The notes below the pieces were generated by a model, which saw only the letters and a program-made list of their open reading frames with translations, had not been told where the DNA came from and did no database searches. From an uncultured Candidatus Melainabacteria bacterium (GTDB lineage Bacteria > Cyanobacteriota > Vampirovibrionia > Gastranaerophilales > Gastranaerophilaceae): 51,783 bases of DNA. The stretch spans positions 1-51,783 of the forward strand of contig CAMDYM010000006.1 of the NCBI GenBank assembly GCA_945910425.1, written 5' to 3'. Both the position numbers and the translations under genes were made by a program. Positions 6,506 through 49,478 of this stretch are shown here, one piece after another (the first letter of the stretch is position 1; each line of letters begins with the position of its first letter).

Positions 6506-8977
6506 ATGAAAATACAATTTAACCCTCAAATCTACTCTTCTTACAATAAAAAACCATTATTAACAAAACAACAAATACCATCCCCACAAATAGCAAATTC
6601 TATAACCTACAACCCGATAACCTATAAAGATTTTAATATAAGTTTTGGCGCAAGAACCCCTGAGGACTTTTATGAATTTAACGCACAAAGTATGCCGTAT
6701 TCAATGAGAAATTACCTTAATTATAACAAAGAAGAGCGTAAACACATTCCGCCGGAACAAATAATGAACGAAGTTTTCAAATATCTTGATGATGCTAACG
6801 ATTTTGAAGATGTTAAAAAGAACTATTACCCTAATGAAGATTTATTTGCTAACCTGCATCCGCTAAGAAAAAATTCAAGAAAAGGTATTCTATCTGAAAT
6901 TAAAGTAGCAAGAGATTTAAGTGACACTCCGCTTTTGAAAAACGGCTCGGATGACTTTGGAATGTATCTTTTGAAAAAAATTTATAAAGAAGGCAAAACC
7001 CTTAAAGAAATAAATAAGGATTTCCTTGAAAAAGATATCAACGAAGAATATAAAGGCTTTATCACAGAACCTGTCACCTATGATACAACCGGCGCATACG
7101 GAATAAAATTCCCAAATATCGGATTTTGGCACTCTTTTATTGCAACCAGAGATGAATATAAAAAATTCTTCGTAAACCTTCCCAAAAATATGGTAGACCC
7201 AAACAGAACAGAAGCCAATTCAAAATCATCAAGCTCAAAAACAACATCAAAAGGACAAGAAACTGAAAAAGGTGAAACCAAAAGGACACCGAGAAAATAT
7301 AAAATAAAAGACTATCAGAAAAAACAACTGCAAAACGATATCAAAAAAACTAACGGCGATATTGATTCAACAACCGTTGAAAAAGCAGTAAGACGAAGAT
7401 TCAGCAAAGATGACCCTGAAGCATCTTTTATCATTAAATACTTAAGCCCGATAATGACCGTTGCAGCAGACAAGGTTCATTTGTCAGAAGAAATGAGATA
7501 TTTTAACGAATTTGATTCTAACCCGACAATGAAAAGATTTTGGAGTTCAAATCAGGAACTTTTAGACAACTACACCACAGCAATTACAGATACAATGGAA
7601 TTATTCGAAGATGTTTTTGGTGGAGGCGGGCTTATTCCAATAAACAATAACTATGAACAAATCACACCAAAAACAGAAAACCAAAAACCTATAGATTTTG
7701 TAACCCCTGAATTTATTGAGCTTCTGGATTATACTCAAACAATTAAACCAAACCGCGATAAACGATACGCAGAATACGATGAAATGCAAAAACAGTGGGA
7801 ACAACATTTTCTTGAGCGATACGGAGAAGTAAAAGAAGACGAAGTTATAAATAAATCCGCAACAAACGAGCCAAGTAATAATGAACCACATGAATTATCT
7901 TTTTCAGAAGTATTAGCTCAAAACCCGACAGCAAAAATATATTCATATAACATATGTGATACAGATGTAAAAATTGCTATAGACTCAAAAGAAATATTTG
8001 AGAAAAGTATTATTAACGAAGAACACCAAAATACACCTAAAAGTTATAGCGAAAAATTCGCAAGATTTGCGCTAAAACACCCTAAACTGACAGAAGATAT
8101 ACTATTAGGTTATGCAATTAATGTAAAAGACTTAATGCAAGGTAGTCTTTATTTCCCTAATGGTGTAAAGCGCACGGAAGAAGAACAAGAATTATTTAAC
8201 CAAAAAATCAAATCTGAAATAAAATCACAACTACCTTCCCAAGACGAAATTTTCGATGTCCTGACAGAAATACACGAAGACTTTGAAAAGAAATATCCTC
8301 AATTTACTAAAAGAGTAAAACAAGCAATCAGAGAATATTCTACCACCTTAAAAACTCCAAGCAAAGAATATTTAAAAACTCTGGTAGAAGAACGAATCCG
8401 CACTTTGAAAGAAGCAGGAATGCTTGACGAAAATGTCAGTGAAGAAGAAAAAATCCAAACAACAAAAAGAATGTATGAACGAGTAACAGAAAATATCAGA
8501 AATATGAAAAACCATGTGATAGGTTATATGGATATCAATGAACTTGAAGCAGGAATTTGGTTCTTAAAAATAGGAAGAGATAAAGAAAATACCGCTGAAA
8601 TAATGGATAATATATTACAAAAATATAATACCCCTTTGACAAAAAAAGAACAGATAAATATTCTTAACAAGTTTTTCAACATTATGGTAAATATGAATCC
8701 GGAAGATACAGAATATTACAATGCTCCTAACGTATCTCAAAGTTATCGAAGAACAATGAACGGTCTAAAATTAAAAGAAAATGCTAAAATAAAGAAAAAC
8801 ATAATTGAAATAATCTCTAAAAATATAATTACAAATGACAATACAACATTAAGATACCTTCTTGATGAAAATGGAGATAAAAATTTGCAAGAATCAATTG
8901 TAGAAACAGAAATAATTCCAATATTCCGTTATGAAAATCTTAGATTATTAGCTCAAGTAACAAATCATGATTTATAA
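6506..8977 (+). CDS. Large protein of unknown function with N-terminal ISFGA tag
   Basis: No family recognised, 823 residues. The frame is open from 6464, but ATG 6506 is chosen because AAGGAAA lies just before it and because MKI-type starts recur in tag-bearing neighbours. Residues 1-44 are polar and Asn/Gln/Tyr-rich, followed by ISFGA at 45-49, the motif seen in seven other proteins here. The rest is strongly charged (Lys/Glu) and probably helical, with a Ser/Thr/Lys-rich linker near residues 235-275. No membrane segment, signal peptide or Cys cluster is evident. The late part contains several EEE/KK-rich helices that may form coiled coils. It is monocistronic, ended by the bidirectional terminator at 8984-9015. 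Confidence 0.75.
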   Translation: MKIQFNPQIYSSYNKKPLLTKQQIPSPQIANSITYNPITYKDFNISFGARTPEDFYEFNAQSMPYSMRNYLNYNKEERKHIPPEQIMNEVFKYLDDANDFEDVKKNYYPNEDLFANLHPLRKNSRKGILSEIKVARDLSDTPLLKNGSDDFGMYLLKKIYKEGKTLKEINKDFLEKDINEEYKGFITEPVTYDTTGAYGIKFPNIGFWHSFIATRDEYKKFFVNLPKNMVDPNRTEANSKSSSSKTTSKGQETEKGETKRTPRKYKIKDYQKKQLQNDIKKTNGDIDSTTVEKAVRRRFSKDDPEASFIIKYLSPIMTVAADKVHLSEEMRYFNEFDSNPTMKRFWSSNQELLDNYTTAITDTMELFEDVFGGGGLIPINNNYEQITPKTENQKPIDFVTPEFIELLDYTQTIKPNRDKRYAEYDEMQKQWEQHFLERYGEVKEDEVINKSATNEPSNNEPHELSFSEVLAQNPTAKIYSYNICDTDVKIAIDSKEIFEKSIINEEHQNTPKSYSEKFARFALKHPKLTEDILLGYAINVKDLMQGSLYFPNGVKRTEEEQELFNQKIKSEIKSQLPSQDEIFDVLTEIHEDFEKKYPQFTKRVKQAIREYSTTLKTPSKEYLKTLVEERIRTLKEAGMLDENVSEEEKIQTTKRMYERVTENIRNMKNHVIGYMDINELEAGIWFLKIGRDKENTAEIMDNILQKYNTPLTKKEQINILNKFFNIMVNMNPEDTEYYNAPNVSQSYRRTMNGLKLKENAKIKKNIIEIISKNIITNDNTTLRYLLDENGDKNLQESIVETEIIPIFRYENLRLLAQVTNHDL

Positions 8978-8983
8978 AAAAAC

Positions 8984-9015
8984 AAAGAAACGGGAAAATC
9001 TTCCCGTTTCTTTTT
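8984..9015. terminator. Bidirectional Rho-independent terminator
   Basis: AAGAAACGGGAA pairs with TTCCCGTTTCTT around AATC, with T runs on both strands. It serves the convergent large unknown gene (+) and pnp (-). Confidence 0.9.
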
Positions 9016-9037
9016 ATCTGTTTAACCTATTAAAGAC

Positions 9038-11176
9038 TTACTGAGCTTTAGCTCTGTCTTCATCGGTTACACCTTTGATAGTCAAGTTTACACGACCTTT
9101 TTCGTCGATTTTAATAACTTTAACTACAACTTCCTGACCAATAGTCAAATGAGGTTCAATAGTTTCAATTCTTTCGTTGCAAACTTGAGAAATGTGAACC
9201 ATTCCGTCTTTGCCTCCGCCTAATTCAACGAAAGCACCAATAGGAATAATTCTTACAACTTTGCCTTTAACAACCATTCCGACTTCCGGTTTGAAGGTCA
9301 AATCTTTAATCATCTTAATAGCGATTTGAGCACCTTCCTGGTCGTTAGAAGTAATAGTTACCACACCTGAATCCTGAATATCAATTTCAGCACCTGAAGC
9401 ATCAATAATTGCACGGATTTGTTTTCCGCCGGGTCCGATAACTGTTCCGATATCTTCTGTCGGAATAGTCATTGTTGTAATGCTTGGTGCAAACGGTGAC
9501 ATAGGTCCGGGTTCAGTAATTGCTTCTCTCATTTTACCTAAGATATGTAATCTGCCTTCTTTAGCTTGAGCTAAAGCTCTTCTTAATGTGGCATTTGCAA
9601 TACCTTTAGCTTTCATATCCATTTGAAGAGCGGTAATTCCTGTATCATTACCTGTAACTTTAAAGTCCATATCGCCCAAGAAATCTTCAATACCTTGAAT
9701 ATCAGTTAAGACAACAGGTTCTTTGCCTTCTTCGGTAATCATACCCATAGCAACCCCGCCAATCATACATTTAACAGGAACACCAGCGTTCATCAAAGCC
9801 ATTGAAGAACCGCAAGTTGAAGCCATAGAGGTTGAACCGTTTGATTCTAAGACATCTGATGTTACACGAATTGTGTATCCGAACTCTTCTTGAGAAGGAA
9901 GTGCAGGAACATTAGCTCTTTCAGCTAAAGCACCGTGACCAACTTCACGACGTCCCGGACCTCTTAGAGGTTTTACTTCACCTACAGAAAATCCAGGGAA
10001 GATGTATTTATGCATGTAAGTTTTTTCAGTTTCAGGGTCAACACCGTCAAGTTCTTGCTTCATAGCAGGACCTGCAAGAGTTGCAACTGATAATACCTGA
10101 GTTTGACCTCTTGTAAACACAGCTGAACCGTGAGCACGAGGAATAACACCAACTTCACACCAAATTGGACGAACTTCGGTTGGTTTTCTGCCATCTGCTC
10201 TAACACCTTCATCAAGAATCATTGTTCTCATAATTTTCTTTTCAGCGTTTTTAAATTCTTCTGCTACAAAGTCAATGCCTGTTTCTTCGATAATTTGCTT
10301 GATGTAATGGTCATCAGGCAAAGCATCGATTTTTTCTTTAACAAGTTTTTTAGCTTCTTCCAATTTCTCCTGACGATAAGTTCTGTCAAAATTATGGTAA
10401 GCATCAAAAATCATATCATGTGCGGTTTCATTGATAATATTTTTTAACTCGGTTGTATCGTAAGGGTTTACAAACACTTCTTTTTCAACACCGCAAAGTT
10501 TTGCAAATTCAACCTGAGCTTCGCATTGTTTTTTAATTTCTTCTTGAGCGAACTCAACAGCAGCCATAATATCGTCTTCTGTAACGAATTTACATCCTGC
10601 TTCAACCATGATTACAGAATCATGTGTACCTGCTACAACGATATCAAGGTCAGATTCTTTAGCTTGTCTGTGAGTAGGGTTAGCAATTAAGTTACCTTCG
10701 CTGTCGCGAGAAACTCTTACTGCACCAATTGGTCCTTCAAAAGGAGCTCCAGAAAGCATCAAAGCACAAGAAGCACCTAACATTGCTAATGTATCAGGTT
10801 GGTTTTCCTGGTCATAACTAAACAATTGAGCTACGATTTGAATATCATTTCTATAACCTTTAGGGAATAAAGGTCTGATAGGTCTGTCTATCAATCTTGA
10901 GATAAGGATAGCTTTATCACTTGCTTTACCTTCTGAACGGTTGTAACCGCCGGGAATTCTGCCGATTGAAGACATTCTTTCTTCATAATCAATTAATAGA
11001 GGGAAAAAGTCTATACCAACTCTTGGTTCTTTTGATACAACACAGTGAACAAATAACATTGTATCACCACATCTTACAGTAACAGAACCGTTAGTAGATT
11101 GACCATACTTCCCTGTTTCAATAGTAACGGTTTTACCACCGATTTCTAATTGAAAAGATTTTGTTTCAGGTTTCAT
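9038..11176 (-). CDS. pnp: Polyribonucleotide nucleotidyltransferase (PNPase)
   Basis: Phosphorolytic 3'-5' exoribonuclease of 712 residues, the usual length. It degrades RNA to nucleoside diphosphates with phosphate and normally acts as a trimer in the degradosome. Domains in order: RNase PH-like 1 (about 10-145), helical linker (240-320), RNase PH-like 2 (325-550) with the catalytic GDMDFK at 501-506, KH domain with the GxxG loop GPGG (581-584), and S1 domain (about 633-702). The start is supported by AAAAGG upstream of the ATG at 11176. It is single, convergent with the unknown gene, and shares its terminator. A second phosphorolytic RNase, rph, lies at 36035. Confidence 0.98.
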   Translation of the reverse strand: MKPETKSFQLEIGGKTVTIETGKYGQSTNGSVTVRCGDTMLFVHCVVSKEPRVGIDFFPLLIDYEERMSSIGRIPGGYNRSEGKASDKAILISRLIDRPIRPLFPKGYRNDIQIVAQLFSYDQENQPDTLAMLGASCALMLSGAPFEGPIGAVRVSRDSEGNLIANPTHRQAKESDLDIVVAGTHDSVIMVEAGCKFVTEDDIMAAVEFAQEEIKKQCEAQVEFAKLCGVEKEVFVNPYDTTELKNIINETAHDMIFDAYHNFDRTYRQEKLEEAKKLVKEKIDALPDDHYIKQIIEETGIDFVAEEFKNAEKKIMRTMILDEGVRADGRKPTEVRPIWCEVGVIPRAHGSAVFTRGQTQVLSVATLAGPAMKQELDGVDPETEKTYMHKYIFPGFSVGEVKPLRGPGRREVGHGALAERANVPALPSQEEFGYTIRVTSDVLESNGSTSMASTCGSSMALMNAGVPVKCMIGGVAMGMITEEGKEPVVLTDIQGIEDFLGDMDFKVTGNDTGITALQMDMKAKGIANATLRRALAQAKEGRLHILGKMREAITEPGPMSPFAPSITTMTIPTEDIGTVIGPGGKQIRAIIDASGAEIDIQDSGVVTITSNDQEGAQIAIKMIKDLTFKPEVGMVVKGKVVRIIPIGAFVELGGGKDGMVHISQVCNERIETIEPHLTIGQEVVVKVIKIDEKGRVNLTIKGVTDEDRAKAQ

Positions 11177-11359: not shown

Positions 11360-12190
11360 ATGTCAAGTTATAGAAAAACCACACCTAACATATGTCGCCA
11401 AGATGCTATTAAATCAAAAGAAGTAATCATTAATAAACGACCTCAAACTTCAACCCCGCAAAAGGTTGCACCAAACTCTGTATTTAGTGCAGATACAACA
11501 AAGAATAACAATATGAAAATTGTTCATAGCACAAATATGGGAAGAACAATGCAAAGTTTAATCGGGCAAACTGAAAATAACGGACATGCACCTGCATTCA
11601 TAACGGGTAAAGCATACACAAATCAACAATGGTGTGCTTATACAATATCCTATGCCATAGATAAAATTACAAAAGCTAAAGGTATAAAAAATCCGACAAA
11701 AGGATTTTATGCTGTAAGCCAATATAGGGATTGGGGGAGAAAATCAGGCAGATATAAACCAATAGCAACACAAAACGTATCAAAAGATAATTTTCAAAAA
11801 GATAGAGCCGCAAGAGAAAAAGAAATAAAAGCCCAACTTCCAAAAATGAAAGAAGGGGATTTAATCATTTGGAAATCCGAATATTACGCAAAAGCCTTTG
11901 AAAACGGAAAGGGTACAATGAAACACTTTACAAGCAGTCACATTGGTATGATTGAAAAAGTAGAGGGTGATTATGTATATGTAATAGAAGGAAACGCGAA
12001 TGAAGCAAAAAGTGATAACAACTATGAAAGGTATATAAATTCAACAGATTCAATCATTGGCAATCAAAAAGCCGGAGAAATTGTAGAAATTAATCAAAAT
12101 GACGGAGTAATAAGGAAGAGATATTCTATATCAGATTTAGCAAAATTCGGATATAGCGGCTTCATCGACATGAAAGGTTTATCAGATTAA
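11360..12190 (+). CDS. CHAP-domain cysteine peptidase/amidase-like protein
   Basis: Predicted peptidoglycan amidase or endopeptidase, 276 residues. The CHAP domain spans about 85-270, with nucleophile C92 in QQWCAYTISYAID, general base H194 in TSSHIGMIEKV and the third polar residue around E210-N212 (IEGNANE). GDLIIWK before the His is typical of the family. Residues 1-80 are basic and Thr/Asn-rich with no hydrophobic Sec signal. It is homologous to the CHAP protein at 13574 (shared WCA, GF..S..WG...GR, GD.IIxK, SH.G, IEGN). AGGAG sits just upstream of the ATG. A tRNA-Arg follows 64 bases downstream. The substrate bond is not known. Confidence 0.8.
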   Translation: MSSYRKTTPNICRQDAIKSKEVIINKRPQTSTPQKVAPNSVFSADTTKNNNMKIVHSTNMGRTMQSLIGQTENNGHAPAFITGKAYTNQQWCAYTISYAIDKITKAKGIKNPTKGFYAVSQYRDWGRKSGRYKPIATQNVSKDNFQKDRAAREKEIKAQLPKMKEGDLIIWKSEYYAKAFENGKGTMKHFTSSHIGMIEKVEGDYVYVIEGNANEAKSDNNYERYINSTDSIIGNQKAGEIVEINQNDGVIRKRYSISDLAKFGYSGFIDMKGLSD

Positions 12191-12232: not shown

Positions 12233-12253
12233 CAACATGAATATTTTTTAAAT

Positions 12254-12327
12254 GGCTTCGTAGCTCAGCAGGATAGAGCAGTGGTTTCCTAAACCAAAGA
12301 TCGCGCGTTCGAATCGCGCCGGGGCCA
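12254..12327 (+). tRNA. tRNA-Arg (anticodon CCT)
   Basis: A 74-base cloverleaf: acceptor GGCTTCG/CGGGGCC with wobble pairs, D stem GCTC/GAGC, anticodon loop TTCCTAA with CCT at positions 34-36, and T arm GCGCG-TTCGAAT-CGCGC. The discriminator is A and CCA is not encoded. The first anticodon-stem pair is a G-A mismatch. The last 15 bases are duplicated at 12497-12511. Confidence 0.9.
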
Positions 12328-12561
12328 TTTTTGTTTTGTTAAAAATAATCATACCTGCGCGATGAGAACGCACAATGCGAAAGCATTGTTTGTCGTTCGA
12401 GCGCGAGTGAGCTGAGTGCGGAGGCGTTTTCTTTGGAGCAAGCTATGCTTGTGAAAAGAAAATCCGTAGACACGTTAAACGCGAACGAGCAAGACAATCG
12501 CGCCGGGGCCATTTTATTTTGTGAAAACATTTATAGTCACGCGATGAGAACGCACAATGCG
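12313..12561. repeat. Tandem duplication (about 183-base period) starting in the tRNA 3' end
   Basis: ATCGCGCCGGGGCCATTTT at 12313 recurs at 12497, followed in both copies by TTTTGT and then CGCGATGAGAACGCACAATG (12358 and 12540). Copy 1 is complete (12313-12496); copy 2 stops near 12561 after GCGAAA. The unit is GC-richer than the surroundings and contains short hairpins (AATGCGAAAGCATT; CAAGCTATGCTTG). Two short open frames cross it, but they have no ribosome binding sites or protein-like composition. It looks like an integration or slippage scar at a tRNA. Confidence 0.75.
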
Positions 12562-12698: not shown

Positions 12699-13424
12699 AT
12701 GAAAATCAATCCAATTAATTGTACAAATCAGTACAACAAAAATGACGTATCATTTAACGGTGGAATTCCGAGGAAAATAGTATGTTTCGGTCCACCTGCA
12801 AGCGGTAAAGGAACACAAACAAGCCATTTATCAAAAGAGTTAGGGTTACCGCATGTTGATATGGGCTCACTTTTGAGAAGTACAATAGCTTCAGGCAGTG
12901 AAGAAGGTCAACTTGCCAAATCTTTTATAGAAAAAGGACAACTTGTTCCGACTAAATTAATTGCAAAAATAATAGAAAACATGCTTGCAAGTTCAAAATG
13001 TAAAGACGGTTACATCTTAGACGGTTTTCCACGAAACCTTGAACAAGCACACTTACTTGAAGGTATCAACCAAAGAATTGAAGCAGGCAAAAAAACAATA
13101 TTTCAGGCAATTAACTTTGAAGTAAGCCCAAAACTTCTTTTGGAAAGAATCGTTAATCGCAGATCCTGCCCTCAGTGCGGAGAAATTTATAATACAAAAT
13201 TCAAAGCACCAAAAATTGAAAACGAATGTGATATTTGCCATATTCCGCTAAGACAAAGAGCTGACGATACAGCAGAAATTGCTCAGGCTCGTTTTAAAAC
13301 TTATGATGAACAAACCGCACCGCTTATAAATTATTACAAAGAACAGGGGACTTTAAGCTCAATTGACGCAAACGGTTCAATCGAAGAAGTTTGGGAAAGA
13401 CTTTTTTCCGTAATTAAACACTAA
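12699..13424 (+). CDS. adk: Adenylate kinase with N-terminal tag extension
   Basis: Catalyses ATP + AMP = 2 ADP in the cytoplasm, 241 residues. The P-loop GPPASGKGT is at 31-39, the AMP-binding and DGFPR (108-112) motifs are present, and the LID is a Cys4 zinc type (C157, C160, C177, C180). This is a long-LID bacterial Adk. What is odd is the start. Typical Adk begins a few residues before the first beta strand, but here about 24 residues precede it: a polar Asn-rich stretch plus VSFNGG (17-22), the tag seen in other proteins in this window. No in-frame Met lies between residue 1 and the P-loop, and AGGGG precedes the ATG, so the extension appears to be translated. A terminator follows at 13447. 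Confidence 0.95.
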   Translation: MKINPINCTNQYNKNDVSFNGGIPRKIVCFGPPASGKGTQTSHLSKELGLPHVDMGSLLRSTIASGSEEGQLAKSFIEKGQLVPTKLIAKIIENMLASSKCKDGYILDGFPRNLEQAHLLEGINQRIEAGKKTIFQAINFEVSPKLLLERIVNRRSCPQCGEIYNTKFKAPKIENECDICHIPLRQRADDTAEIAQARFKTYDEQTAPLINYYKEQGTLSSIDANGSIEEVWERLFSVIKH

Positions 13425-13573: not shown

Positions 13574-14341
13574 ATGCTACAAGGATTAACGCCTGCCGGC
13601 TCTTATCGTTCGTCAGGAAGCGGTAACATTTTTAGTAAAGCTACAAAATCGACAAGCAACGGGTACACAATTTATTCAATTGCAGGAATAGGTTATGGAA
13701 CAATAGACTACAGCACTCCAATAAACTTTACCGTGCCTAAAATAACAATTCCACCGATAACTCTTCCAAAAATTTCTGTAAGCACACCAAAAACAAACAG
13801 AGCAACAAACTCAAGCAGTTCTGAAGGACAGGGGATTTTCAGCACATTTGGCTCCTGGATTAAAAAAGGCTGGGATTATATAACTAACCTTGGTAAGGGA
13901 ATCATATCAACCGCGGCAAAATATTTGGGATTCAATGAAAGAAACGGTTCTTATAAGAAATTTACAAATGGACGAACAGAGGCATGGTGCGCAGATTTCG
14001 TAACCTATGTTGTTAAAGAAACATTTAGACTAATGGGTAAAGCAATACCTCGCGGATTTGGTTCGGCGTCCGTATCAGGCTTAATGGCTTGGGGTAAACA
14101 AAACGGACGATGGGTTCAAACAGCAGGAAAAGGTAATAAAGCAAGTATTATCAAGCAAAACGTCAAACCCGGAGATATAATAATATTCAAAAACGGCGGA
14201 GCATCTCACACAGGTATTGTTGAATCAATAGCCGCAGACGGTACAATCCATACAATTGAAGGTAACACATCTGACCGAGTTGCACGGAGACGATACTCAC
14301 CAAATAAAGCAACAATAACAGGATTTATAAAAATGGCATAA
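13574..14341 (+). CDS. CHAP-domain cysteine peptidase/amidase-like protein (paralogue)
   Basis: Predicted wall-active amidase/endopeptidase, 255 residues. The N-terminal 80 residues are Ser/Thr/Pro-rich with a repeated P-K-I-T-I-P-P-I-T-L-P-type segment (about 55-67), resembling an extended linker. The CHAP domain occupies about 125-253 with C139 in EAWCADFVTYVV, H212 in GGASHTGIVES and E229/N231 in TIEGNTSD. No hydrophobic signal peptide. AAGGGG ten bases before the ATG supports the start. It is related to the CHAP protein at 11360 and, like it, lies directly beside a tRNA-Arg. A strong bidirectional terminator follows. Confidence 0.82.
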   Translation: MLQGLTPAGSYRSSGSGNIFSKATKSTSNGYTIYSIAGIGYGTIDYSTPINFTVPKITIPPITLPKISVSTPKTNRATNSSSSEGQGIFSTFGSWIKKGWDYITNLGKGIISTAAKYLGFNERNGSYKKFTNGRTEAWCADFVTYVVKETFRLMGKAIPRGFGSASVSGLMAWGKQNGRWVQTAGKGNKASIIKQNVKPGDIIIFKNGGASHTGIVESIAADGTIHTIEGNTSDRVARRRYSPNKATITGFIKMA

Positions 14342-14390: not shown

Positions 14391-14398
14391 ATAAAACT

Positions 14399-14472
14399 TG
14401 TGCCCGGGGGGATTCAAACCCCCGACCTTGAGCTTCGGAGACTCACGCTCTATTCAACTGAGCTACGAGCAC
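14399..14472 (-). tRNA. tRNA-Arg (anticodon CCG)
   Basis: A 74-base minus-strand cloverleaf: acceptor GTGCTCG/CGGGCAC, D stem GCTC/GAGC, anticodon loop CTCCGAA (CCG at 34-36), T arm GGGGG-TTTGAAT-CCCCC, discriminator A and no encoded CCA. It lies directly after the terminator of the lemA operon. Confidence 0.95.
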
Positions 14473-14474
14473 AT

Positions 14475-18744: not shown

Positions 18745-20454
18745 ATGATAAATAAAGTTGAATTAGGTAGTGTAAATAGTAAGAATAAACCCCAAATGCA
18801 ATATAATATTGCACAAAATAAGGGTCAAATGTCTTTTACAGGTTTTGGAAATGTTGTCGTTCAAAAAGCGGTAAAAGGAATCCAGAAGTGTGAAGAATCT
18901 CCAATGCTTAATGTTACCGTACTTGATTTGTCAACAGCGATTATTCCGAGAACAATTTTTGAAACGGTTATCGGCTCAAAGAAAAAAGAGAACTCTAATA
19001 AAGAACAGGAAGAAAAACCTAAAAGAAAATTTAACTTTGTCGGAGGTTTTGAAGCCCTAAGACGTGAAGGTTCAGGACTTTTAATTAACTGTATTATTCC
19101 AAGCTATGTTGTATATGGTGTTGCAAAATTACTTCAACGCCCTGTAATGGGTATGTTTAAGAAATCAAGCCTTGCAAGAAGCTGGGCTAACAGCGATACA
19201 ATAAATCAGGTACAAGCTCACTTTAACCAAGCAACAGGTGCAACAAAAGAAGAACGTGTATTTAATACTCTAAAAACAATGTTTGATAATATTGAAGGTG
19301 TTGACGGAGATGTTTCAAACGGCGGATTAAAGAAATTCAGCGACATTTTTGCAAACAAAAAAGAATACAAAAACGCAATCAAAAAAATGACTCAACAAAT
19401 CTTAAGCGACAATCCTAAAAAAGGCTACGCAACAGATATGTACAGGTATTTGGTTGAAACAAGCGGAATTTCTGAAAATATAAGATTTAAAGGCGATAAA
19501 AAATTCTTCTCAAGCAGTTTAAGCCATCTTTGTGAAAGCGCAGGAGATATTCTTCACGGCGCCGCACAAGAAGGTTTAATAAAAGACGGAACACAAAATC
19601 TGGACGAATTTGCAAAATACTTATCAAAAGCTAAAAAGCTTGTTAACTGGAAAAGTGTTTCAGGTCTGGGTTTAATCATCCCGCTTGCAATAGCAGCACA
19701 GCCTATCAACAGATGGATTACCCATAAAGTTGCAGGTAAAAAAGGCGCACCGATTTACAATGATGACAAAGAAAGAACTTTAACACCTGAAGAAAAACAT
19801 AAGCTTACCGCAAAAAAATTCGTTGCCGTACCTTTAATGTGGGCAACAGCAGGCTTGTCAATGCTTATGGAAAGACCAAGCCTTAAGATGTTCCAATTTA
19901 AGAACATCTTCCCGACAATGGATCAGGCAAGATTAATTTCAGCTGCAACCTTCTCCAGCAGACTTGCAGCCTCAGAAGACTCTAACGAATTAACAGAAAG
20001 CACAATAAGAGATATCGCAACATTCTCAAGCTTCTATTTCTTAGGTGATTATGCTGCTAAAGGTATCGCAACTTACCTTGAAAAAACAAACAAAGACGGT
20101 ATTAAGTTCATTAACGAACTGACTCCGAAAAAAGCCGGTGCAAATGTTCTTCAAAAATTCTGGCACTGGGCTAAACATACTAAAATGAAATCAACAGATG
20201 AATTAAGTGCTATTGCAAACGAAGCAACAAGAATAAAAGCAAGAAACTTAAGAGCAATTTGCCAGTTAGGAAGTATGGCATTCTCACTATTGTCACTTGG
20301 GGTATTTATTCCGATTTACACAAGAACCCAATCAAATAAAAAAGAACAAAAACTTCAAGAAAAACTTGCCACACAACCACAAACCTTTGGCGGCTCGTTT
20401 ACCCAAAAGATGATAAAAGAAAACTCACAAGCATTTAAACAATTTTTCAACTAA
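18745..20454 (+). CDS. Unknown protein with FTG tag and IPRT motif (paralogue A)
   Basis: A 569-residue protein of a family I cannot name. Polar residues 1-28 are followed by MSFTGF (29-34), then VLDLSTAIIPRTIF (about 59-72) and GGFEALRREGSGL. Several moderately hydrophobic segments (for example INCIIPSYVVYGVAKLL, GLIIPLAIAAQP, FVAVPLMWATAGLSML, SMAFSLLSLGVFIPIY) suggest membrane association. It is clearly homologous to the next gene: both have DL...IPRT, GFE..RREG.G, AQP.N..IT.K and SR..S..(D/N)NEL.EST I.D. The C-terminus has FGGSFTQKMI, a second tag-like element. There is no strong Shine-Dalgarno at the ATG. It is the first of a two-gene unit (26-base gap). Confidence 0.75.
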   Translation: MINKVELGSVNSKNKPQMQYNIAQNKGQMSFTGFGNVVVQKAVKGIQKCEESPMLNVTVLDLSTAIIPRTIFETVIGSKKKENSNKEQEEKPKRKFNFVGGFEALRREGSGLLINCIIPSYVVYGVAKLLQRPVMGMFKKSSLARSWANSDTINQVQAHFNQATGATKEERVFNTLKTMFDNIEGVDGDVSNGGLKKFSDIFANKKEYKNAIKKMTQQILSDNPKKGYATDMYRYLVETSGISENIRFKGDKKFFSSSLSHLCESAGDILHGAAQEGLIKDGTQNLDEFAKYLSKAKKLVNWKSVSGLGLIIPLAIAAQPINRWITHKVAGKKGAPIYNDDKERTLTPEEKHKLTAKKFVAVPLMWATAGLSMLMERPSLKMFQFKNIFPTMDQARLISAATFSSRLAASEDSNELTESTIRDIATFSSFYFLGDYAAKGIATYLEKTNKDGIKFINELTPKKAGANVLQKFWHWAKHTKMKSTDELSAIANEATRIKARNLRAICQLGSMAFSLLSLGVFIPIYTRTQSNKKEQKLQEKLATQPQTFGGSFTQKMIKENSQAFKQFFN

Positions 20455-20480: not shown

Positions 20481-22154
20481 ATGAAAATAGAAAACGACAT
20501 TAAACCTCAATTTAACATAAAGCAAATCCAACGTAAGAACAATCAAAACGGATTAACAGTAACTCCTGCGAAAACTCAAAGTTTCACAGGGTTCAGTCCC
20601 GTTCCGCTTCTTAACTTTTTGGATACAAACCAAGCATGGGGTGCGTGTGCGGTAGATTTAGGTTTTATGGTCATTCCAAGAACGGCTACAGACTTCGGAA
20701 GAGGAGCTGATGCAGGTTTTGAAACAATGCGCAGAGAAGGTTTAGGTACAACAAACCATTCTTGCGTAGGCTTATACGGAACAGCCGCAGGTATGGCTCT
20801 TGCCGCTGCACTTAATCACACTTACGGATTAGGTAAAGGCAGTATAAAAGCTCATTCTATTTTTGCAGATACCGAAACTCTTGATATGCAGGGAAAAATC
20901 TTTACAGAAGCAATCAAGAAACCTAATCCGCTTGAAGAACATTTAACACAAGTTCTTTCAAGATATCAGGTGCAAACTGCTGACGGAAGCTGGAAAGGTT
21001 TTGGAGCTGACGAAATCAAAAAAGCAGCACAAATTCTTGAAAATGAAATCAGAACCGGCGGAAAGAAAATCAGCAAAGAAGCAGATTATAATGTAAGGAG
21101 TATTTTAAGATCATCAGTTGAAGGTATTGGAAATAACTTTAGAATAATATCTGAAGATGGTGCTAAAGAACATACTTCACGTTATTCTATTGACTATATC
21201 GTTGAAAATGCTTACAAACTGACAAAAATATTCATTAAAGATAAAGTTAAAGAAACATTTGAAAATACAGCCGATTATGCTCAAAACGCATTCTTAAAAT
21301 CTATCAAAACAATGAACAAAAACCGTTCACTTGTCGGTATAGGTATCGCATCAGCAGTTGGTGTTTCAGCTCAACCACTTAATATGTACATTACCAAAAA
21401 GAAAACAGGTAACACTGGTTTTGTAGGCGGCGGTGAAGAAGATAAATCTGCAAAATTCAAAGCAAAAAAAGCGGTTTTTGCTACATTATTTGGTGCCGGT
21501 GTTCTTTCAACCATTGAAAATCCGCTCAAACTTATCAAAAATCCTAAATTATTAGGAGATGCACTTCTATTTAAAGGATTTTCACCGACAATTAAACAAT
21601 TTAAGTTTATCTACGGTATAACAATTATGTCCAGATTCTTATCATCAAGAAACGATAATGAACTGAAAGAATCTACAATAAAAGATACATTAGGATTTGC
21701 TAACTGGTTAATCTTAGGTAACTTTGTACAAAAACTTGTTGCTCAAGGTTTGGATAAGACCTTGGTTAAACGTGACGGTAGAGGCATAGTTAACTGGTTG
21801 AAAAACTCAACATTAAAAACCAGAGAAGAAGTACTTCACTCAGCTTTAGGTAAAAAGGCATTCAAAAACGGTAAAGCCTTAAGCTTAATGGAAATGATAA
21901 AAGAATTACCAAAAGGTCATGCAGCAAGAAAACAATTAGGATTCCTAACACTTGCACAACTTGCAGGATACGCATACTCAGGTATCGTTTTAGGAACAGG
22001 TATTCCAAAACTTAACATTTACCTGACAAAACGTCGTATGGCTAAACAAAACGCTCAACAGCAAGATAATGCAACTGCAAATGATAACAAACAGGCTGTA
22101 GCTTATGCAAAAAGCTTAAACAACTTTACAGGCTATAAAATGATTCACCAGTAA
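20481..22154 (+). CDS. Unknown protein with FTG tag and IPRT motif (paralogue B)
   Basis: 557 residues, tandem paralogue of the previous gene. An Asn/Gln/Lys-rich leader is followed by QSFTGF (33-38), VDLGFMVIPRTATDF, GFETMRREGLGT, ASAVGVSAQPLNMYITKK, SRNDNELKESTIKD and a hydrophobic segment GYAYSGIVLGTGIP. Near the C-terminus it has NNFTGYKMI, echoing the N-terminal tag. Gly/Ala-rich hydrophobic stretches (YGTAAGMALAAAL; VFATLFGAGVLS) suggest membrane insertion. AAAGGCAG lies before the ATG. The stop codon directly abuts the stop codon of the convergent atpG. No function is inferred from sequence. Confidence 0.75.
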   Translation: MKIENDIKPQFNIKQIQRKNNQNGLTVTPAKTQSFTGFSPVPLLNFLDTNQAWGACAVDLGFMVIPRTATDFGRGADAGFETMRREGLGTTNHSCVGLYGTAAGMALAAALNHTYGLGKGSIKAHSIFADTETLDMQGKIFTEAIKKPNPLEEHLTQVLSRYQVQTADGSWKGFGADEIKKAAQILENEIRTGGKKISKEADYNVRSILRSSVEGIGNNFRIISEDGAKEHTSRYSIDYIVENAYKLTKIFIKDKVKETFENTADYAQNAFLKSIKTMNKNRSLVGIGIASAVGVSAQPLNMYITKKKTGNTGFVGGGEEDKSAKFKAKKAVFATLFGAGVLSTIENPLKLIKNPKLLGDALLFKGFSPTIKQFKFIYGITIMSRFLSSRNDNELKESTIKDTLGFANWLILGNFVQKLVAQGLDKTLVKRDGRGIVNWLKNSTLKTREEVLHSALGKKAFKNGKALSLMEMIKELPKGHAARKQLGFLTLAQLAGYAYSGIVLGTGIPKLNIYLTKRRMAKQNAQQQDNATANDNKQAVAYAKSLNNFTGYKMIHQ

Positions 22155-27306: not shown

Positions 27307-27894
27307 TTACCAGGTCAGCTCATCAAAGTCGGCAATTTTTACATCTGTAAATATTCGATTTACGGCATTTTCCACGCTGCCAAAGACCTTTGTATCTGAT
27401 ATTATATCCAAAAGTTTATTTCCGATAAGCCACTCATCTTTAACAGAATCATATGATAAATGGTTTTCAAAATCCCCACCCTTAAACTTTGAATAAGGGA
27501 TATTTAACTTTTTCAAAACACCTTCCAAAAATTCAAATAAGCCTGTACTTCGAGGAGAAGATATATTATCCCGTTTTGAACCCAGAATAAGAGCTTGCAT
27601 ATTTTCAGGATTAAGCTTTTCTCTGACATTTTCCATAATATATTTTTCTAGCTTTGACCAATTATCGTTTTGAGGAATATTAGGACAAAGATGCAAAAAT
27701 AAGACTTCATGTCCGTCATTTATCCCCAGAGCAGTGCAATCATAAACACCTTCAGTAAAGGCTTTATTGGCACAAACTGTTTGCTTAACAGTCCAGGGGT
27801 AAACAACATTGTTACGGCATCTTTTTATACTTTGCTTAAAAGCACTTTCGGGGACTAGTCTTATCCTTGATTGAAAAGAGATATTATTGTTCAT
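27307..27894 (-). CDS. Unknown protein with N-terminal ISFQS tag
   Basis: A 195-residue protein, family not recognised. It opens MNNNISFQSR, matching the tag motif (hydrophobic-S-F-Q-S). The body is mixed alpha/beta with conserved-looking stretches ALGINDGHEVLFLHLCP and ALILGSKRDNISSPRSTGLFEFLEGVL, which could form a small enzyme-like domain (a weak resemblance to CheD-type glutamine deamidases is only an impression). No signal peptide or membrane helix. It lies between atpB and the divergent birA. Confidence 0.65.
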   Translation of the reverse strand: MNNNISFQSRIRLVPESAFKQSIKRCRNNVVYPWTVKQTVCANKAFTEGVYDCTALGINDGHEVLFLHLCPNIPQNDNWSKLEKYIMENVREKLNPENMQALILGSKRDNISSPRSTGLFEFLEGVLKKLNIPYSKFKGGDFENHLSYDSVKDEWLIGNKLLDIISDTKVFGSVENAVNRIFTDVKIADFDELTW

Positions 27895-32055: not shown

Positions 32056-32358
32056 GTTAAATAAAATAAAACTTTCTAAACCCTCTATAAGATTTTTGTT
32101 ACGAATTTTAAAACTTTGATTAGTTCTTACATTATCAACTACAAAATATTTCTCAAATTGAGTTAACTCAAGAACATCATCTTTGTTATCATTTGCTACT
32201 CTTGAAATGAAACTGTCAAAATAATCTTCAAAACCTTTTTTCTCTGAAACAGCTCTATTTAAAGCATTTAATGCCCTTTTTGTCTGGTAAATATTTGTAT
32301 TAAATCTTGAGGTAAAATTTAAATTATTATTATATTGTTGAGTATTATAAATTTTCAT
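32041..32358 (-). CDS. Small unknown protein with NFTSR tag
   Basis: A 105-residue protein, family unknown. It starts MKIYNTQQYNNN and then LNFTSRF (13-19), the tag motif. The remainder is charged and helical with no Cys or membrane segment. ATG 32358 is chosen: AGGA lies ten bases upstream, in the end of the preceding gene, and the alternative TTG three codons earlier is too close to it. It overlaps the upstream gene's stop (ATG lies inside the last codons), so the pair is probably co-translated. Confidence 0.6.
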   Translation of the reverse strand: MKIYNTQQYNNNLNFTSRFNTNIYQTKRALNALNRAVSEKKGFEDYFDSFISRVANDNKDDVLELTQFEKYFVVDNVRTNQSFKIRNKNLIEGLESFILFNKKSS

Positions 32359-32773
32359 ATTTATCAAGTCCTAACTCTTTTAAAGAAAGTTTTTCCAATT
32401 CAATTTCCTTAATTTTCAAATTTTTAACTTCGTAATCAAGAAACGTAGAAATTATTCGGCGGATCAAAGTTTCACCTTTAGCATCAAACATTCTGTTTTC
32501 ATTTAGCAAATCACAAAGAATTTTTATTCTGTCAGCCGAATGAGCAATTTCAGGGAAGCGTTCCCTTATAACATTCCGAACCCCTCTAAGCCCGTCAACA
32601 AGCTGACCGGTATACATTTTGTTTACATCTAAGCCTGAAAGATCTTCTAACAGCTTATTTTGTCGTGGATTTGAGATTTTTGCATCCTCAAAAAAACAAC
32701 CGGTTGCACTTTCTATTGCAACTTTTACGGGAATTTTTATACCAAATGACGGTGAATACGAATTTATTTTCAT
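32345..32773 (-). CDS. Small unknown protein with SFGIK tag
   Basis: A 142-residue protein, family unknown. It opens MKINSYSPSFGIKIP, again the tag (PSFG at 8-11). The body is helical and charged with one Cys pair region (TGCFF; IKILCDLL). No signal peptide. A short AGG lies just before the ATG. It forms a two-gene unit with the downstream small tag protein; both are convergent with oadB and divergent from the formyltransferase-like gene. Confidence 0.65.
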   Translation of the reverse strand: MKINSYSPSFGIKIPVKVAIESATGCFFEDAKISNPRQNKLLEDLSGLDVNKMYTGQLVDGLRGVRNVIRERFPEIAHSADRIKILCDLLNENRMFDAKGETLIRRIISTFLDYEVKNLKIKEIELEKLSLKELGLDKYENL

Positions 32774-45877: not shown

Positions 45878-45886
45878 GACATGTAG

Positions 45887-45902
45887 TATCAATATATTGA
45901 TA
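45887..45902. promoter_or_regulatory. Perfect palindrome, candidate Xre operator
   Basis: TATCAATATATTGATA is a 16-base perfect palindrome just downstream of the predicted pilin transcription start and upstream of the Xre gene. Binding there would block the pilin promoter's early transcript and could autoregulate xre. Confidence 0.6.
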
Positions 45903-45932
45903 GAATTATACATAATATTGACAGGAGAAAGT

Positions 45933-46679
45933 ATGAAAAGAGCATTTACTTTGGCTGAAACATTAATAACACTCGGTATAATCGGCATTGTAGCAGCTTT
46001 AACTATCCCTCACTTAAAAGCTTATTTATTTGAAAAACAATCAGTTAATAATTTTAAACAAAGTTACTCTATTATAAATAATGCAATCAGACTTATGGAA
46101 GAAGAGGAAGACTGTCAAGGCGAAGGATGTTATAATAAATTCAAAGCACCTGAAATTGAAGCTATTGCTTCAAATATAGATAAACACTTTAAGTATGCCG
46201 ATAAAAAATGTTATCCTGTAGGTCATAGAAAAGAAATATTAAGTTGGTTGCCTGAAAAGACTTATGCTTTAGACGGAAGACCTGCAAGCTACTCAACTTA
46301 TTCCATAGGTGCAAAACTTGGTGCTGATAACTCTGGTGTTTGTTATTACAAATTATATAACGGTGCTGTTGTAGCTTTTCCCAGAATGAATGCATTTAAT
46401 AATAGCGGAGTTTTAAATATAGTAATAGATTCTAACGGTAAATCAGGTCCTAACAGAGTAGGTAAAGATATGTTTCCTGTTACAAGCTTTGGAGATAATT
46501 ACACTTTGATGCCTTATTATAATATTCACTCTTGGGCTTCACCGGATTTTTATAAAGGTCTATGCAAGTATACAACAGCAAAATCATGTAAAATTGACGC
46601 CAAAAGTCCTGCTGCGTACGTATTAACAAATAACAAATTACCCGATTTAGAAAAAGCAGGCTTCCCTAAAAATCCATAA
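45933..46679 (+). CDS. Type IV pilin-like protein
   Basis: 248 residues. MKRA-FTLAETLITLGIIGIVAALTI is a class III/type IVa prepilin leader: cleavage before Phe5, Glu at +5 of the mature protein. A globular domain with several Cys (EDCQGEGC and later Cys) follows. ATG 45933 is chosen because AGGAG lies before it; the longer frame from 45867 has no support. It is convergent with the GntR-type regulator (6-base gap). Confidence 0.88.
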   Translation: MKRAFTLAETLITLGIIGIVAALTIPHLKAYLFEKQSVNNFKQSYSIINNAIRLMEEEEDCQGEGCYNKFKAPEIEAIASNIDKHFKYADKKCYPVGHRKEILSWLPEKTYALDGRPASYSTYSIGAKLGADNSGVCYYKLYNGAVVAFPRMNAFNNSGVLNIVIDSNGKSGPNRVGKDMFPVTSFGDNYTLMPYYNIHSWASPDFYKGLCKYTTAKSCKIDAKSPAAYVLTNNKLPDLEKAGFPKNP

Positions 46680-46685
46680 CTAATT

Positions 46686-47852
46686 TTATTGTTGTAATTC
46701 AGAATACTCTTTAGCAAATGCCGGATTAACAGCAAGCCACTTGAAAGTTTGAGCTTCGACTTCAGGAATATCAATCACAAATGTTCCGCCGTAACGCCCG
46801 CGTGAAAATACAAGATACCCCTCTTTTCCAAGATTATGGAATGCTTTTCTGATTGTGTTAGGACTTAAATCCAATGATTTTGACAATTCCTGAATAGACG
46901 GCAACTTATCACCGACTTCGTATTCTGTTGCTATCATTCGTTTTAAATAATTTTGAGTTTTTTCATAATGATAGAACGCAGTATCCTTAGCTGAAGCAAA
47001 GATTGAAGTTTCAGGCTTCATTGAAGGAATTTCACCGTTTGGCATTCTGATAACGGTTGTTCCGTATCTTCCTCTGCGGGCAAGAAGAATTCCTCTGTCT
47101 ATTAAAACTTTTAGGGCGTCATGAACGGTTTTCATACTTGCCTTTAATGATTTAGCTAAAGTTGCATGAGCAGGCATTCTGTCACCTGTTTTTAAATTCG
47201 CTGAAATATAATTTTCTAAATCTTTAACTACCATATCGACAAGAGTTTCGACTTTTGTTGAAGCGACCTGAGTTTCCACTTCAAAATCTGTTGTTATCAC
47301 AACCCAACCCTTATCTCTCGGGGTTCTGAAATCACGTTTTATAATCCCAAACGTTGCCAAATTTTCTAAAGCAAGTCTTGTAGTATTAGCGCCAAACCCG
47401 ATAATTGTTGATATCGTTCTTGAAGACGGAAGTAAAGAACCTGCTTTAAATCCGTCATTTAAAATATATCGCTTAATAGAATCTACTGCCATATCTCGTT
47501 TTGAGGTAAGTTTTCTTAATGTTGTTTTTGAACCCTCTACAGAACCTTTAACCAAAGTTCCGATACACTGCTTAGATTCAACATAGCCTAAATCTTCAAT
47601 ATAACGAAGAGCATTTTGCATTGTTCCGATACTAACGCCAAGCCTGTAGGCAAATTCAGCCTTTGACGGCAGGATATTATTAACACTGATTTTTCCTGAT
47701 TTTAAACTTGATTCAATCCAGCCGATAAGCCATTTTCCGATAACAACAGCCTTTGATTCGTCAGTATTTTTCAAATCGGGAAGCTGAATATCAACTTCTT
47801 CAATTCTTATTTTATGTAATTCGTTTTTCTTTGGAAACATGTAATCATTCAT
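46686..47852 (-). CDS. Regulator with four tandem GntR-type winged helices
   Basis: 388 residues that consist of four successive winged-helix modules with no visible effector domain: about 35-103, 118-187, 203-270 and 293-362. Each has an amphipathic first helix, an LPS/MP turn (ILPSKAEFAYRLGVS; LLPSSRTISTIIGFG; RMPAHATLAKSLKAS; KLPSIQELSKSLDLS), a recognition helix and a wing ending in RGRYGGT-type sequence. GntR regulators normally have one such domain plus an effector domain. It could bind a repeated operator or bridge DNA. It is divergent from the UmuC-like gene. No start ribosome binding site stands out. Confidence 0.85.
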   Translation of the reverse strand: MNDYMFPKKNELHKIRIEEVDIQLPDLKNTDESKAVVIGKWLIGWIESSLKSGKISVNNILPSKAEFAYRLGVSIGTMQNALRYIEDLGYVESKQCIGTLVKGSVEGSKTTLRKLTSKRDMAVDSIKRYILNDGFKAGSLLPSSRTISTIIGFGANTTRLALENLATFGIIKRDFRTPRDKGWVVITTDFEVETQVASTKVETLVDMVVKDLENYISANLKTGDRMPAHATLAKSLKASMKTVHDALKVLIDRGILLARRGRYGTTVIRMPNGEIPSMKPETSIFASAKDTAFYHYEKTQNYLKRMIATEYEVGDKLPSIQELSKSLDLSPNTIRKAFHNLGKEGYLVFSRGRYGGTFVIDIPEVEAQTFKWLAVNPAFAKEYSELQQ

Positions 47853-47923
47853 AAATTCTACCTGTCTTTTGCCTAATGATATACTATGTGTAAAAAAACA
47901 GCAAGATATTTTTTGCTACTATT

Positions 47924-47952
47924 TTTACATTTGTTACAAAAAGATATATAAT
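47924..47952 (+). promoter_or_regulatory. Promoter for the Y-family polymerase (possibly leaderless)
   Basis: TTTACA at 47924-47929, 17 bases, TATAAT at 47947-47952. The expected start is about 47959, exactly the A of the ATG, and no Shine-Dalgarno precedes it. A leaderless mRNA is likely. Confidence 0.6.
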
Positions 47953-47958
47953 GATACT

Positions 47959-49134
47959 ATGGTTAAGCAAAAATTTATAGCCTTAGTTGATTGTGACTCG
48001 TTTTTTGTATCGTGTGAGCAAAAGCGAGATATCACGTTAAAAAACAAACCCGTCTGCGTTCTTTCAAATAACGAAGGCTGTGTAATTTCTCGTTCTAAAG
48101 AGGCTAAGAAAATGGGGGTTCGAATGGGTGAACCGTATTTTATGTTAAAAAAAGAACACCCGCAAGCTATAGTAAAAATTGCAGACCATGAATATTATTC
48201 CTATGTATCAAAACAGGTTATGGCTATATTGAAAGATTTTAGCCCTTATGTGCAAATATACTCGGTAGATGAAGCTTTTGTAGACTTAACGGGACTCGTT
48301 AAACTTTACAAAAAGAATTATAAAAATCTTGCCCTTGCGTTGCGGGAAAAAATATTACAAGAAGTCGATATTCCTGTATCAATCGGGGTTAGTTCAACTA
48401 AAACGCTATCAAAACTTGCCTCAGATAAAGCAAAAAATTCTTCAAACGGAGTTTACTTAATCGGGAAACGTAAACTTCACAAAGAACTTAATAACACCCG
48501 AATAGAAGAAATATGGGGAATAGGCAGACGGCTTACCAAAAGTCTTAAACAATACGGAATACTCACAGCCTACGAACTTGTAAGCCGCTCAGATCCTTGG
48601 CTTGATTCAACAATTGGTATTCACGGATTAGAGATGAAACATGAACTATTAGGCGAAATGACTTCCCCCGTCACTAACGCTGAAAAACTTCCTAAATCTA
48701 TCCAAAATACGCGGGCTTTCGGAATATTTACATCAGACTTTAATTTTATCAAAAGCGAACTGAACCGACATATCCACACATCTTGCAGAAAACTTCGCTC
48801 ATATAACACAAAATGTTTGCAAATTGGAGTTATGCTTAGAACAAAAGATTTTAAAGTATACTATGCAAAAAAAGACTTACTGTCGCCTGTTGATTTTGAG
48901 CTTGAAATATCAAATATTGCAATAAAATTGTTAAAAAAAATCTACAACCCCAATATTTTATACCGAAGTACGGGAGTATTTCTTGAAAAAATCGGAGAGC
49001 AGGGAGTTGAGCAGTTATCACTTTACACCGACGGTTCAGATAGTATTAAAAAAGAAAAACTTGCAAAATGTTTTGACAAACTGGAATCAAAATTTGGCAA
49101 AAACATCATTCAAACGGGATTTGTAAAAAAATAG
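47959..49134 (+). CDS. umuC: Y-family (UmuC-like) DNA polymerase
   Basis: Translesion DNA polymerase, 391 residues. ALVDCDSFFVSCE (8-20) carries the first catalytic Asp, YSVDEAFVDLTG (101-112) the SVDE motif with D104 and E105; SNNEGCVISRSKEAKKMGV is a UmuC signature, followed by helix-hairpin-helix and little-finger domains. The C-terminus is shorter than E. coli UmuC (about 420). No umuD is nearby, so activation may differ; a mobile-element-type UmuC is also possible. ATG 47959 is placed at the predicted transcription start. Confidence 0.9.
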   Translation: MVKQKFIALVDCDSFFVSCEQKRDITLKNKPVCVLSNNEGCVISRSKEAKKMGVRMGEPYFMLKKEHPQAIVKIADHEYYSYVSKQVMAILKDFSPYVQIYSVDEAFVDLTGLVKLYKKNYKNLALALREKILQEVDIPVSIGVSSTKTLSKLASDKAKNSSNGVYLIGKRKLHKELNNTRIEEIWGIGRRLTKSLKQYGILTAYELVSRSDPWLDSTIGIHGLEMKHELLGEMTSPVTNAEKLPKSIQNTRAFGIFTSDFNFIKSELNRHIHTSCRKLRSYNTKCLQIGVMLRTKDFKVYYAKKDLLSPVDFELEISNIAIKLLKKIYNPNILYRSTGVFLEKIGEQGVEQLSLYTDGSDSIKKEKLAKCFDKLESKFGKNIIQTGFVKK

Positions 49135-49166
49135 CAAAAATTTTCCTGTTATGTTTTAATACAAAT

Positions 49167-49478
49167 ATGCAAGTAACAAAAATAAATAATACACACTTTA
49201 CATCAAACAAATCTGATTTCTTAGCAAAATTTCATGAAAAAACAAAAAATTCTGCCGATATGACAGATACAATTGTTGTTCCAAGAACAATATTTAAGGG
49301 TTATCTGGGGATTATGGGCGGAACAACTCTGTTAACTCTTGGCGGAATATTAAATAAACACGCTAAAACTTCAAAAACTCTAAGTATTGCAGGGCTTTTA
49401 ACTTCCCTGTACGGAACCTGGGCTTTTGTAAGACCTTTTATAGTTAAAGATGCTAAAGGCGTTGAAAGGGGTAAATAA
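49167..49478 (+). CDS. Short membrane protein with FTS tag and VPRT motif
   Basis: 103 residues. MQVTKINNTHFTSN (tag at 9-14) is followed by DTIVVPRTIFKG (34-45), matching DLSTAIIPRTIF in the 18745 protein, and two hydrophobic segments (about 48-63 and 74-92). It looks like a minimal relative of the large IPRT family. It lies 32 bases after umuC. Function unknown. Confidence 0.7.
   Translation: MQVTKINNTHFTSNKSDFLAKFHEKTKNSADMTDTIVVPRTIFKGYLGIMGGTTLLTLGGILNKHAKTSKTLSIAGLLTSLYGTWAFVRPFIVKDAKGVERGK

Follow-up and report, generated by a model that had tools for sequence, protein, structure and literature searches.

Why do eight proteins from seven unrelated families, encoded along a single stretch of bacterial DNA, each begin with a polar leader followed by a small motif built around one phenylalanine? 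We address this question in a stretch of 51,783 nucleotides, hereafter the window, which is contig 6 (CAMDYM010000006.1) of the 1.76-Mb, 94.55% complete assembly GCA_945910425.1 of an uncultured Candidatus Melainabacteria bacterium, a gut bacterium of Gastranaerophilales type; its own family is labelled f1, the families within the class running from f1 to f9. We will argue that this N-terminal tag is most likely a short linear sorting signal, and we will tentatively consider that it may be read by a flagellar-type export apparatus. Genes are named here by the window position at which they start.

Conservation argues more strongly for the tag than statistical enrichment does. Two of the tagged genes, both on the forward strand, encode a multi-span protein of 569 residues and its paralogue of 557 residues (about 24% identity), so that the eight proteins, initially described as unrelated, represent seven unrelated families. 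The tag of the first (18745..18843) consists of the head MINKVELG, a variable linker and the core SFTG (within MSFTG), and that of the second (20481..20591) of the head MKIENDI, a linker and again SFTG (within QSFTG). When 23 members of both families are aligned, the phenylalanine and the glycine (F35 and G37 in the numbering of 20481) are invariant throughout (23/23), while the linker diverges. The 10 aligned sequences of the 18745 family show an identity of 1.00 at F31 and G33, 0.96 over the head (residues 1-8) and 0.59 over the linker, the corresponding values for the 13 sequences of the 20481 family being 1.00, 0.67 and 0.56; three of the 13 members of the 18745 family (L083, L086 and L088) are omitted, our gene caller having begun them at residue 54. 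The 20481 family was read at 30 loci, the window's own among them; F-x-G lies near the N-terminus at 29 of these and F-G-D at one, F being preceded by S, N, K, R, T or Q. Homologues from f3 and f9, 22-41% identical over parts of the protein, carry F-x-[GSA] behind an N-terminal leader in 14 out of 16 cases, and these leaders are often rich in P, Q, T or R. Where the 20481-type protein is split, the tag is present again: adjoining gene pairs at the f9 loci L188, L196 and L205 match its N- and C-terminal parts, and each of the six proteins with a match to the C-terminal half alone has an N-terminal motif of its own (L187, L188 1416, L189, L190, L196 3771 and L205 652).

The 557-residue protein carries a second copy of the motif at its other end, NFTG at 22122..22133, and [NS]FT[GS] occurs near the C-terminus in 10 of the 30 sequences of its family (own included). 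The initial annotation had attributed a similar FTG/SFT ending to both paralogues, which is right for 20481 (NNFTGYKMIHQ) but not for 18745, which ends in FTQ rather than FTG. No general enrichment of the motif at C-termini was observed (16/1247 for 20.1 expected).

All eight genes and their N-termini were found, upon re-reading of the sequence, where they had been placed, with the phenylalanine of the tag lying anywhere from residue 7 to residue 47. The latter value belongs to the 823-residue protein at 6506 (tag 6506..6652, forward strand), which starts with the head MKI and reaches SFGA (within ISFGA) after a leader of 45 residues, so that the description of the leader as short does not hold for this protein. 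Besides the adenylate kinase treated below, the other tags are those of a 195-residue protein (27868..27894, reverse strand; MNNNISFQS, with ISFQS), a 105-residue protein (32308..32358, reverse strand; MKIYNTQQYNNNLNFTS, with LNFTS), a 142-residue protein whose tag is weaker (32738..32773, reverse strand; MKINSYSPSFGI, with PSFGI) and a 103-residue protein with two hydrophobic segments (49167..49205, forward strand; MQVTKINNTHFTS, with THFTS). The strict motif [SN]F[TGKNQSR][GAS] thus fits six of the eight, and two fit loosely, 32773 because it ends in I and 49167 because it has H. No Pfam match at E up to 0.01 was obtained for any of the eight except the adenylate kinase. Among orthologues and paralogues, NISFQSRIR of 27894 is retained in both relatives found (L077 and L078). 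Within the genome itself, a 6506 paralogue (L022 4876-5550, reverse strand) likewise has MKI as its head and, beyond a linker that has diverged, VSFEAR, an S-F-x-A-R sequence. The alignment of the 32358 orthologue in L077 starts only at residue 26, and the 49167 orthologue in L072 starts MKIQGIQSYTFKG, with TFKG in place of HFTS. The 6506 paralogue adjoins another tagged gene, which has no database match (L022 4876-6551 for the stretch).

In the adenylate kinase, the tag (12699..12761, forward strand; MKINPINCTNQYNKNDVSFNG, with VSFNG) precedes a domain and lid confirmed by Pfam at 12786..13349 (ADK 1.2e-42, ADK_lid 2.4e-13). There is no second methionine between its first codon and the P-loop, and the tag thus belongs to the adk protein. 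This gene is a second copy. The other copy of the genome, on contig 16 beside what by eye resembles a methionine aminopeptidase gene, is untagged, as are 27 out of 27 readable copies of relatives (28/28 altogether); L028, L042 and the other copy of the genome itself bear different extensions. It had been foreseen that adk genes of close relatives lacking the extension could undo the tag; those untagged genes turn out to be a different copy, and the tagged one keeps its tag in a sister species. Among the matches read, only G000 and G007 have the tagged form, with 22 of 26 tag residues identical between them; since this reading left out the first matches of ten f1 genomes, L035 (cut by its contig end) and the second matches in G004, G028 and G039, the tagged form may occur in more than two genomes. 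The tagged adk and its neighbours are flanked by two tRNA-Arg genes (12253-12328 and 14398-14473), a possible insertion site. Around it, the genes 170-931, 11360-12190 and 13574-14341 resemble cell-wall hydrolases, by Pfam for 170 (SLT) and 13574 (CHAP) and by eye for 11360; none of the three has an obvious Sec signal by eye, and the gene at 170 has NFGS near residue 72.

Enrichment was assessed on 832,426 bases sampled from the genome itself and on stretches of relatives, with a home-made gene caller, which started the gene at 18745 at position 18829 and so left its tag outside the leader-filtered counts given below. The bare motif in the N-terminal region is found in 31/782 proteins of the own sample (23.7 expected, P 0.08), 28/614 of the non-flagellated relatives (18.0 expected, P 0.016) and 12/245 of the flagellated ones (6.7 expected, P 0.037), an enrichment too weak for this count to be kept as sole evidence. 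A polar-leader filter (no hydrophobic stretch and few acidic residues) was then added; it was set after the match lists had been seen, and the P values obtained with it are thus nominal. Leader and motif together are found in 15/782 proteins of the own sample when the window is included (3.1 expected) and in 10/733 when it is not (3.1 expected, P 0.0015), in 8/614 of the non-flagellated relatives (2.6 expected, P 0.005) and in 21/1592 of the whole f1 set without the window (7.1 expected, P 1.6e-5). In this pooled f1 set, none of the control motifs is enriched, whether phenylalanine is replaced by L (13 for 22.6 expected), I (19 for 19.9), Y (10 for 7.1) or V (12 for 14.2) or the motif is reversed (12 for 14.6). 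The N-terminal enrichment that the initial annotation proposed to look for genome-wide is present in the sample outside the window, with nominal P values. Family f3 shows no enrichment of the strict motif (2/484 for 1.2 expected); the relaxed one is enriched there (15/484 for 7.1, P 0.006), marginally so without locus L218 (12/461 for 6.9, P 0.049). A hydrophobic head co-occurs with the motif (20/111 motif proteins, 130/1530 others, odds 2.4, P 0.0017), but the effect, although significant, is small and the head is found in a minority of motif proteins, so that it was not retained as a single test.

The physical character of the tag was examined on 19 hand-picked leaders of the same genome, in which Q (3.4x), N (2.9x) and P (1.9x) are enriched and E (0.15x), D (0.32x) and L (0.55x) depleted, glycine being scarce as well, although this composition is partly due to selection. 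With this same reserve, and as judged by composition, the leaders are polar and show no Sec-type hydrophobic core, in line with the absence of a Sec signal noted initially. An AlphaFold2 model of the 20481 protein, built on 23 sequences (mean predicted local distance difference test (pLDDT) 76.9, predicted template modelling score (pTM) 0.70), is mainly helical between the ends, and its pLDDT falls below 50 at residues 1-39, 533-539 and 541-557, so that in this one protein both copies of the motif lie in the low-confidence ends; the N-terminal tail is thus predicted to be disordered up to the motif, and the C-terminal copy likewise lies within the disordered tail of the model. No match to this model was found among the folds of the Protein Data Bank (PDB; best E 0.21). 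Weakly hydrophobic multi-span proteins are found among the tag carriers: none of nine hand-picked ones has a strongly hydrophobic segment (0/9 below 0.9, as opposed to 72/104 untagged proteins) on a simplified scale, the tagged L019 10781 being counted as untagged.

Outside the window, the tag is carried by recognizable enzymes: RtcB (L020 3957, core SFNG), a phosphoribosyl pyrophosphate (PRPP) synthetase (L218 7568, HFAG), a NAPRT-like protein (L218 5738, LFSG; 184.7 bits, below the cut-off of 405), a DHH protein (L146 17060, SFQA), a phosphoglucomutase/phosphomannomutase (L181 882, SFSG), an M16 peptidase (L072 3962, KFTS) and an HNH protein (L079 13579, SFTG). There are also many further tagged proteins without a Pfam family, and the cores found beyond the window are either strict or loose. 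In some cases the motif is doubled within one leader (L184 11658 and L218 7568). A kinase-like protein (L010 11375) and a calpain-like one (L022 5781, with a Cys motif seen by eye) obtained no usable support from Pfam, NCBIfam or PDB and were not used. Taken together, the enrichment, the invariance of F and G and the separate tags of the C-half genes support the initial view of a targeting, docking or processing signal rather than of common ancestry. Among these three, we favour targeting for export; nothing speaks for cleavage.

We then have to consider which machinery of the cell could read such a signal. The genome encodes FlhA, FliE, FliF, FliH, FliO, FliP, FliQ and FliR together with a FlgE/F/G-like protein, as well as weak FliK- and FliJ-like matches (FlhB and FliI were left out of this search), and no flagellin was found in it. 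Its FliE, FliO and FlgE/F/G-like genes suggest that the apparatus is of flagellar type. FlhA-family proteins are found in 39 of the 40 genomes of the family and flagellin in 17 of the 40. An FlhA scoring above 850 bits is present in exactly these 17 genomes. Another, widespread type (708-736 bits) occurs in all flagellin-free genomes but one, which is 63% complete (22/23), and it accompanies the first type in 15 of the 17 genomes with flagellin. This widespread type is the sole full-length FlhA of the window genome. It shares 86-98% of its residues with its counterparts in 50 further f1 genomes (51/52 with its own; G117 has a partial match only), and so does not have the look of a decaying relic. 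In those parts of Di Rienzi et al. 2013 and Soo et al. 2014 that deal with them, such genes of the lineage are treated as flagellar and partly incomplete. The genome also encodes, on contig 2 (L005 17495-18976), a 493-residue protein whose residues 140-482 match residues 310-653 of FHIPEP (E 1.2e-45); it is a relative of the cytoplasmic half of FlhA, with partial matches of about 142-178 bits in most of the 40 family genomes, and would be a candidate receptor for the tag. In f3, a 20-kb stretch of genome G068 (L218) carries F-x-[GSA] behind a leader in 7 of its 23 called genes, with three more near-fits, and it ends inside an FlhA of the widespread type, 3.6 kb from the last tagged gene. The tagged cluster of this stretch (L218 782-14381) holds the PRPP synthetase, the NAPRT-like protein and a weak nicotinamidase-like match, and it resembles an NAD salvage set near FlhA.

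The reading that we favour, quite possible although short of probable, is that the flagellar-type export apparatus, without flagellin, reads the tag and that the tagged proteins leave the cell or reach its envelope. The disordered N-terminal tail would often present a small hydrophobic head at its very start (M-x-I/V-x-x-I/V), followed by a variable linker with many N, Q, K and P but few acidic residues, and then by the core (polar)-F-x-G/A/S; the export gate of this type III apparatus would recognize core and head one after the other, and the protein would then pass through the gate to the outside or to the envelope. A broader version, about which we are more doubtful, is that a class-wide flagellar machine without its filament, nearly unchanged, exports dozens of unrelated proteins by means of a consensus N-terminal tag, among them enzymes of nucleotide metabolism and NAD salvage present as second copies; common gut bacteria would then use a type III signal that is legible in the sequence itself. 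The 20481 family is found in 64 of the 146 genomes of the class, and an FlhA-family match accompanies it in 64/64 of them, as compared to 30/82 of the genomes without the family. The listed genomes of families f2 and f7 gave no FlhA match, and FliP was absent from the four of them examined for it.

Several observations weigh against this proposal. The co-occurrence with FlhA could be produced by common descent, and within the 64 genomes G117 has only its partial FlhA match, with FliP nevertheless present, while G110 (56% complete) has only an FlhA of the other type (39%). The phenylalanine lies at residues 7, 10 and 11 in the tags of 27894, 32773 and 49167, which do not reach the minimum spacing between head and gate motif of early flagellar subunits; according to excerpts of the work on Salmonella FlgD, export stalled when the distance between the two signals was shortened. 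FliE was considered as a known substrate that would bear the tag, but among 30 loci taken, 27 of them with a readable start, the relaxed motif is found in only five (L228, L229, L233, L234 and L235), the remaining ones having K-F-D (4) or L or M instead of F (18); being mostly untagged, FliE was dropped as a tagged substrate. Considering the short tags of the window and the untagged FliE, the tag may function like the signals of early flagellar subunits, as an analogy only. No tagged cluster lies beside the apparatus in the sampled stretches of the window genome, G068 alone having one, and many tagged proteins resemble cytosolic enzymes. The low hydrophobicity of the tagged multi-span proteins would also fit soluble proteins, the remaining 32 of the 104 untagged proteins including plainly soluble enzymes. 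As for the statistics, leader and motif are not significantly enriched in flagellated relatives alone (3/245 for 1.4 expected, P 0.16), and two controls are enriched, Y for F in the non-flagellated relatives (7/614 for 3.0, P 0.034) and I for F in f3 (P 0.006).

The main rival, which we hold to be rather unlikely, is that of an internal docking motif, whereby a common receptor or scaffold would bind the F-x-G tails and gather enzymes and membrane proteins. It would account for the C-terminal motif of one third of the 20481 family and for the doubled motifs, and also for the tags on ordinary enzymes such as RtcB, the PRPP synthetase, the NAPRT-like protein, phosphoglucomutase and adenylate kinase. 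However, no receptor candidate emerged for such a scaffold, and a motif that works in any position would not need to recur at the N-terminus, as it does in the six C-half proteins of f3 and f9. The most familiar forms of this idea, cargo of encapsulins or of microcompartments, were rejected, there being no match to the shell family PF00936 or to the encapsulin family PF04454 in this 94.55% complete genome. The other sceptical view, an improbable one in our opinion, is that of a partial coincidence, in which only the motif of 18745 and 20481 is real and the others are loose matches in AT-rich, disordered starts rich in N, K and Q. The weakness of the bare motif, the post hoc filter, the flagellated relatives and the two enriched controls all favour it, but it fits poorly with the F-specific enrichment of the pooled set outside the window, with the motif kept by 27894 in two relatives, by the 6506 paralogue and by the adk pair, and with its presence in the f3 and f9 homologues, the f3 samples having 51% GC.

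The tag could also serve a different exporter, or delivery to the envelope, by way of a type II, type IV pilus, type IV secretion or as yet undescribed system, for which we see little chance. This is suggested by the pilin-like starts (FTLAEVLITLGIIG), which are the most enriched N-terminal patterns of the own sample, and by the type IV secretion system proposed for effector delivery in Vampirovibrio, of the same class, in a section of PMC4451040. Nevertheless, the VirB4 family has no match in the window genome, and type IV secretion of the VirB4 kind was thus rejected; the search for other exporters did not extend to type I and type VI systems. Substrates of type II systems and of pili normally use Sec or pilin signals, both of which are lacking in the tag leaders. 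Independently of the tag, the genome seems to hold many genes with type IV pilin-like starts.

Coming back to export by the flagellar-type apparatus, no description of the tag was found in the titles and abstract openings of the literature on this lineage, among the matches listed, and the term 'type III' appears in none of the main texts of PMC3787301, PMC4040986, PMC4451040, PMC5877343 and PMC9029806. Secretion systems were sought with TXSScan in PMC5877343. Were the tag an export signal, exported proteins could be listed from sequence for a large and mostly uncultured group of gut bacteria, their flagellar machine without filament would have a use, and a type III signal would be at hand whose consensus could be probed one residue at a time. 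Were it a docking motif instead, several families of a bacterial class would share an internal organizer so far undescribed.

How does the tag compare with known systems? The cargo of encapsulins and microcompartments is recognized by a short terminal peptide common to unrelated proteins; the tag is similar in being a terminal peptide on unrelated proteins, but differs in that neither shell family was found in the genome. According to the available extracts of PMC8983047 and PMC10936197, early flagellar subunits, FlgD and FlgE among them, combine a hydrophobic signal near the N-terminus with a gate recognition motif and, at the other end, a C-terminal signal. The tag offers possible counterparts in the same order: hydrophobic residues at about positions 2-6, seen in a minority of motif proteins, then a short motif and, in part of the 20481 family, a C-terminal element. 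Unlike in those subunits, its core is F-x-G/A/S in a polar setting, with F anywhere from 7 to 47, it is found on enzymes and multi-span proteins rather than on rod or hook subunits, and binding to FlhB is only putative. To our knowledge, the signals of type III effectors lack a consensus. The tag resembles them in its polar N-terminus, with many N, Q and P and few acidic residues, and in its occurrence on unrelated proteins, but F and G are invariant in two of its families. Type III membrane substrates have weakly hydrophobic membrane segments, according to the portion of PMC6110835 that covers them, as do the tagged multi-span proteins. More generally, several features of type III substrates are found here: a signal within the first tens of residues, predicted to be disordered in the one protein modelled, a polar start and an apparatus in the genome. 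Finally, as in the injectisome, the export core exists without flagellin (22/23 flagellin-free genomes), whereas the parts that were found are flagellar in type.

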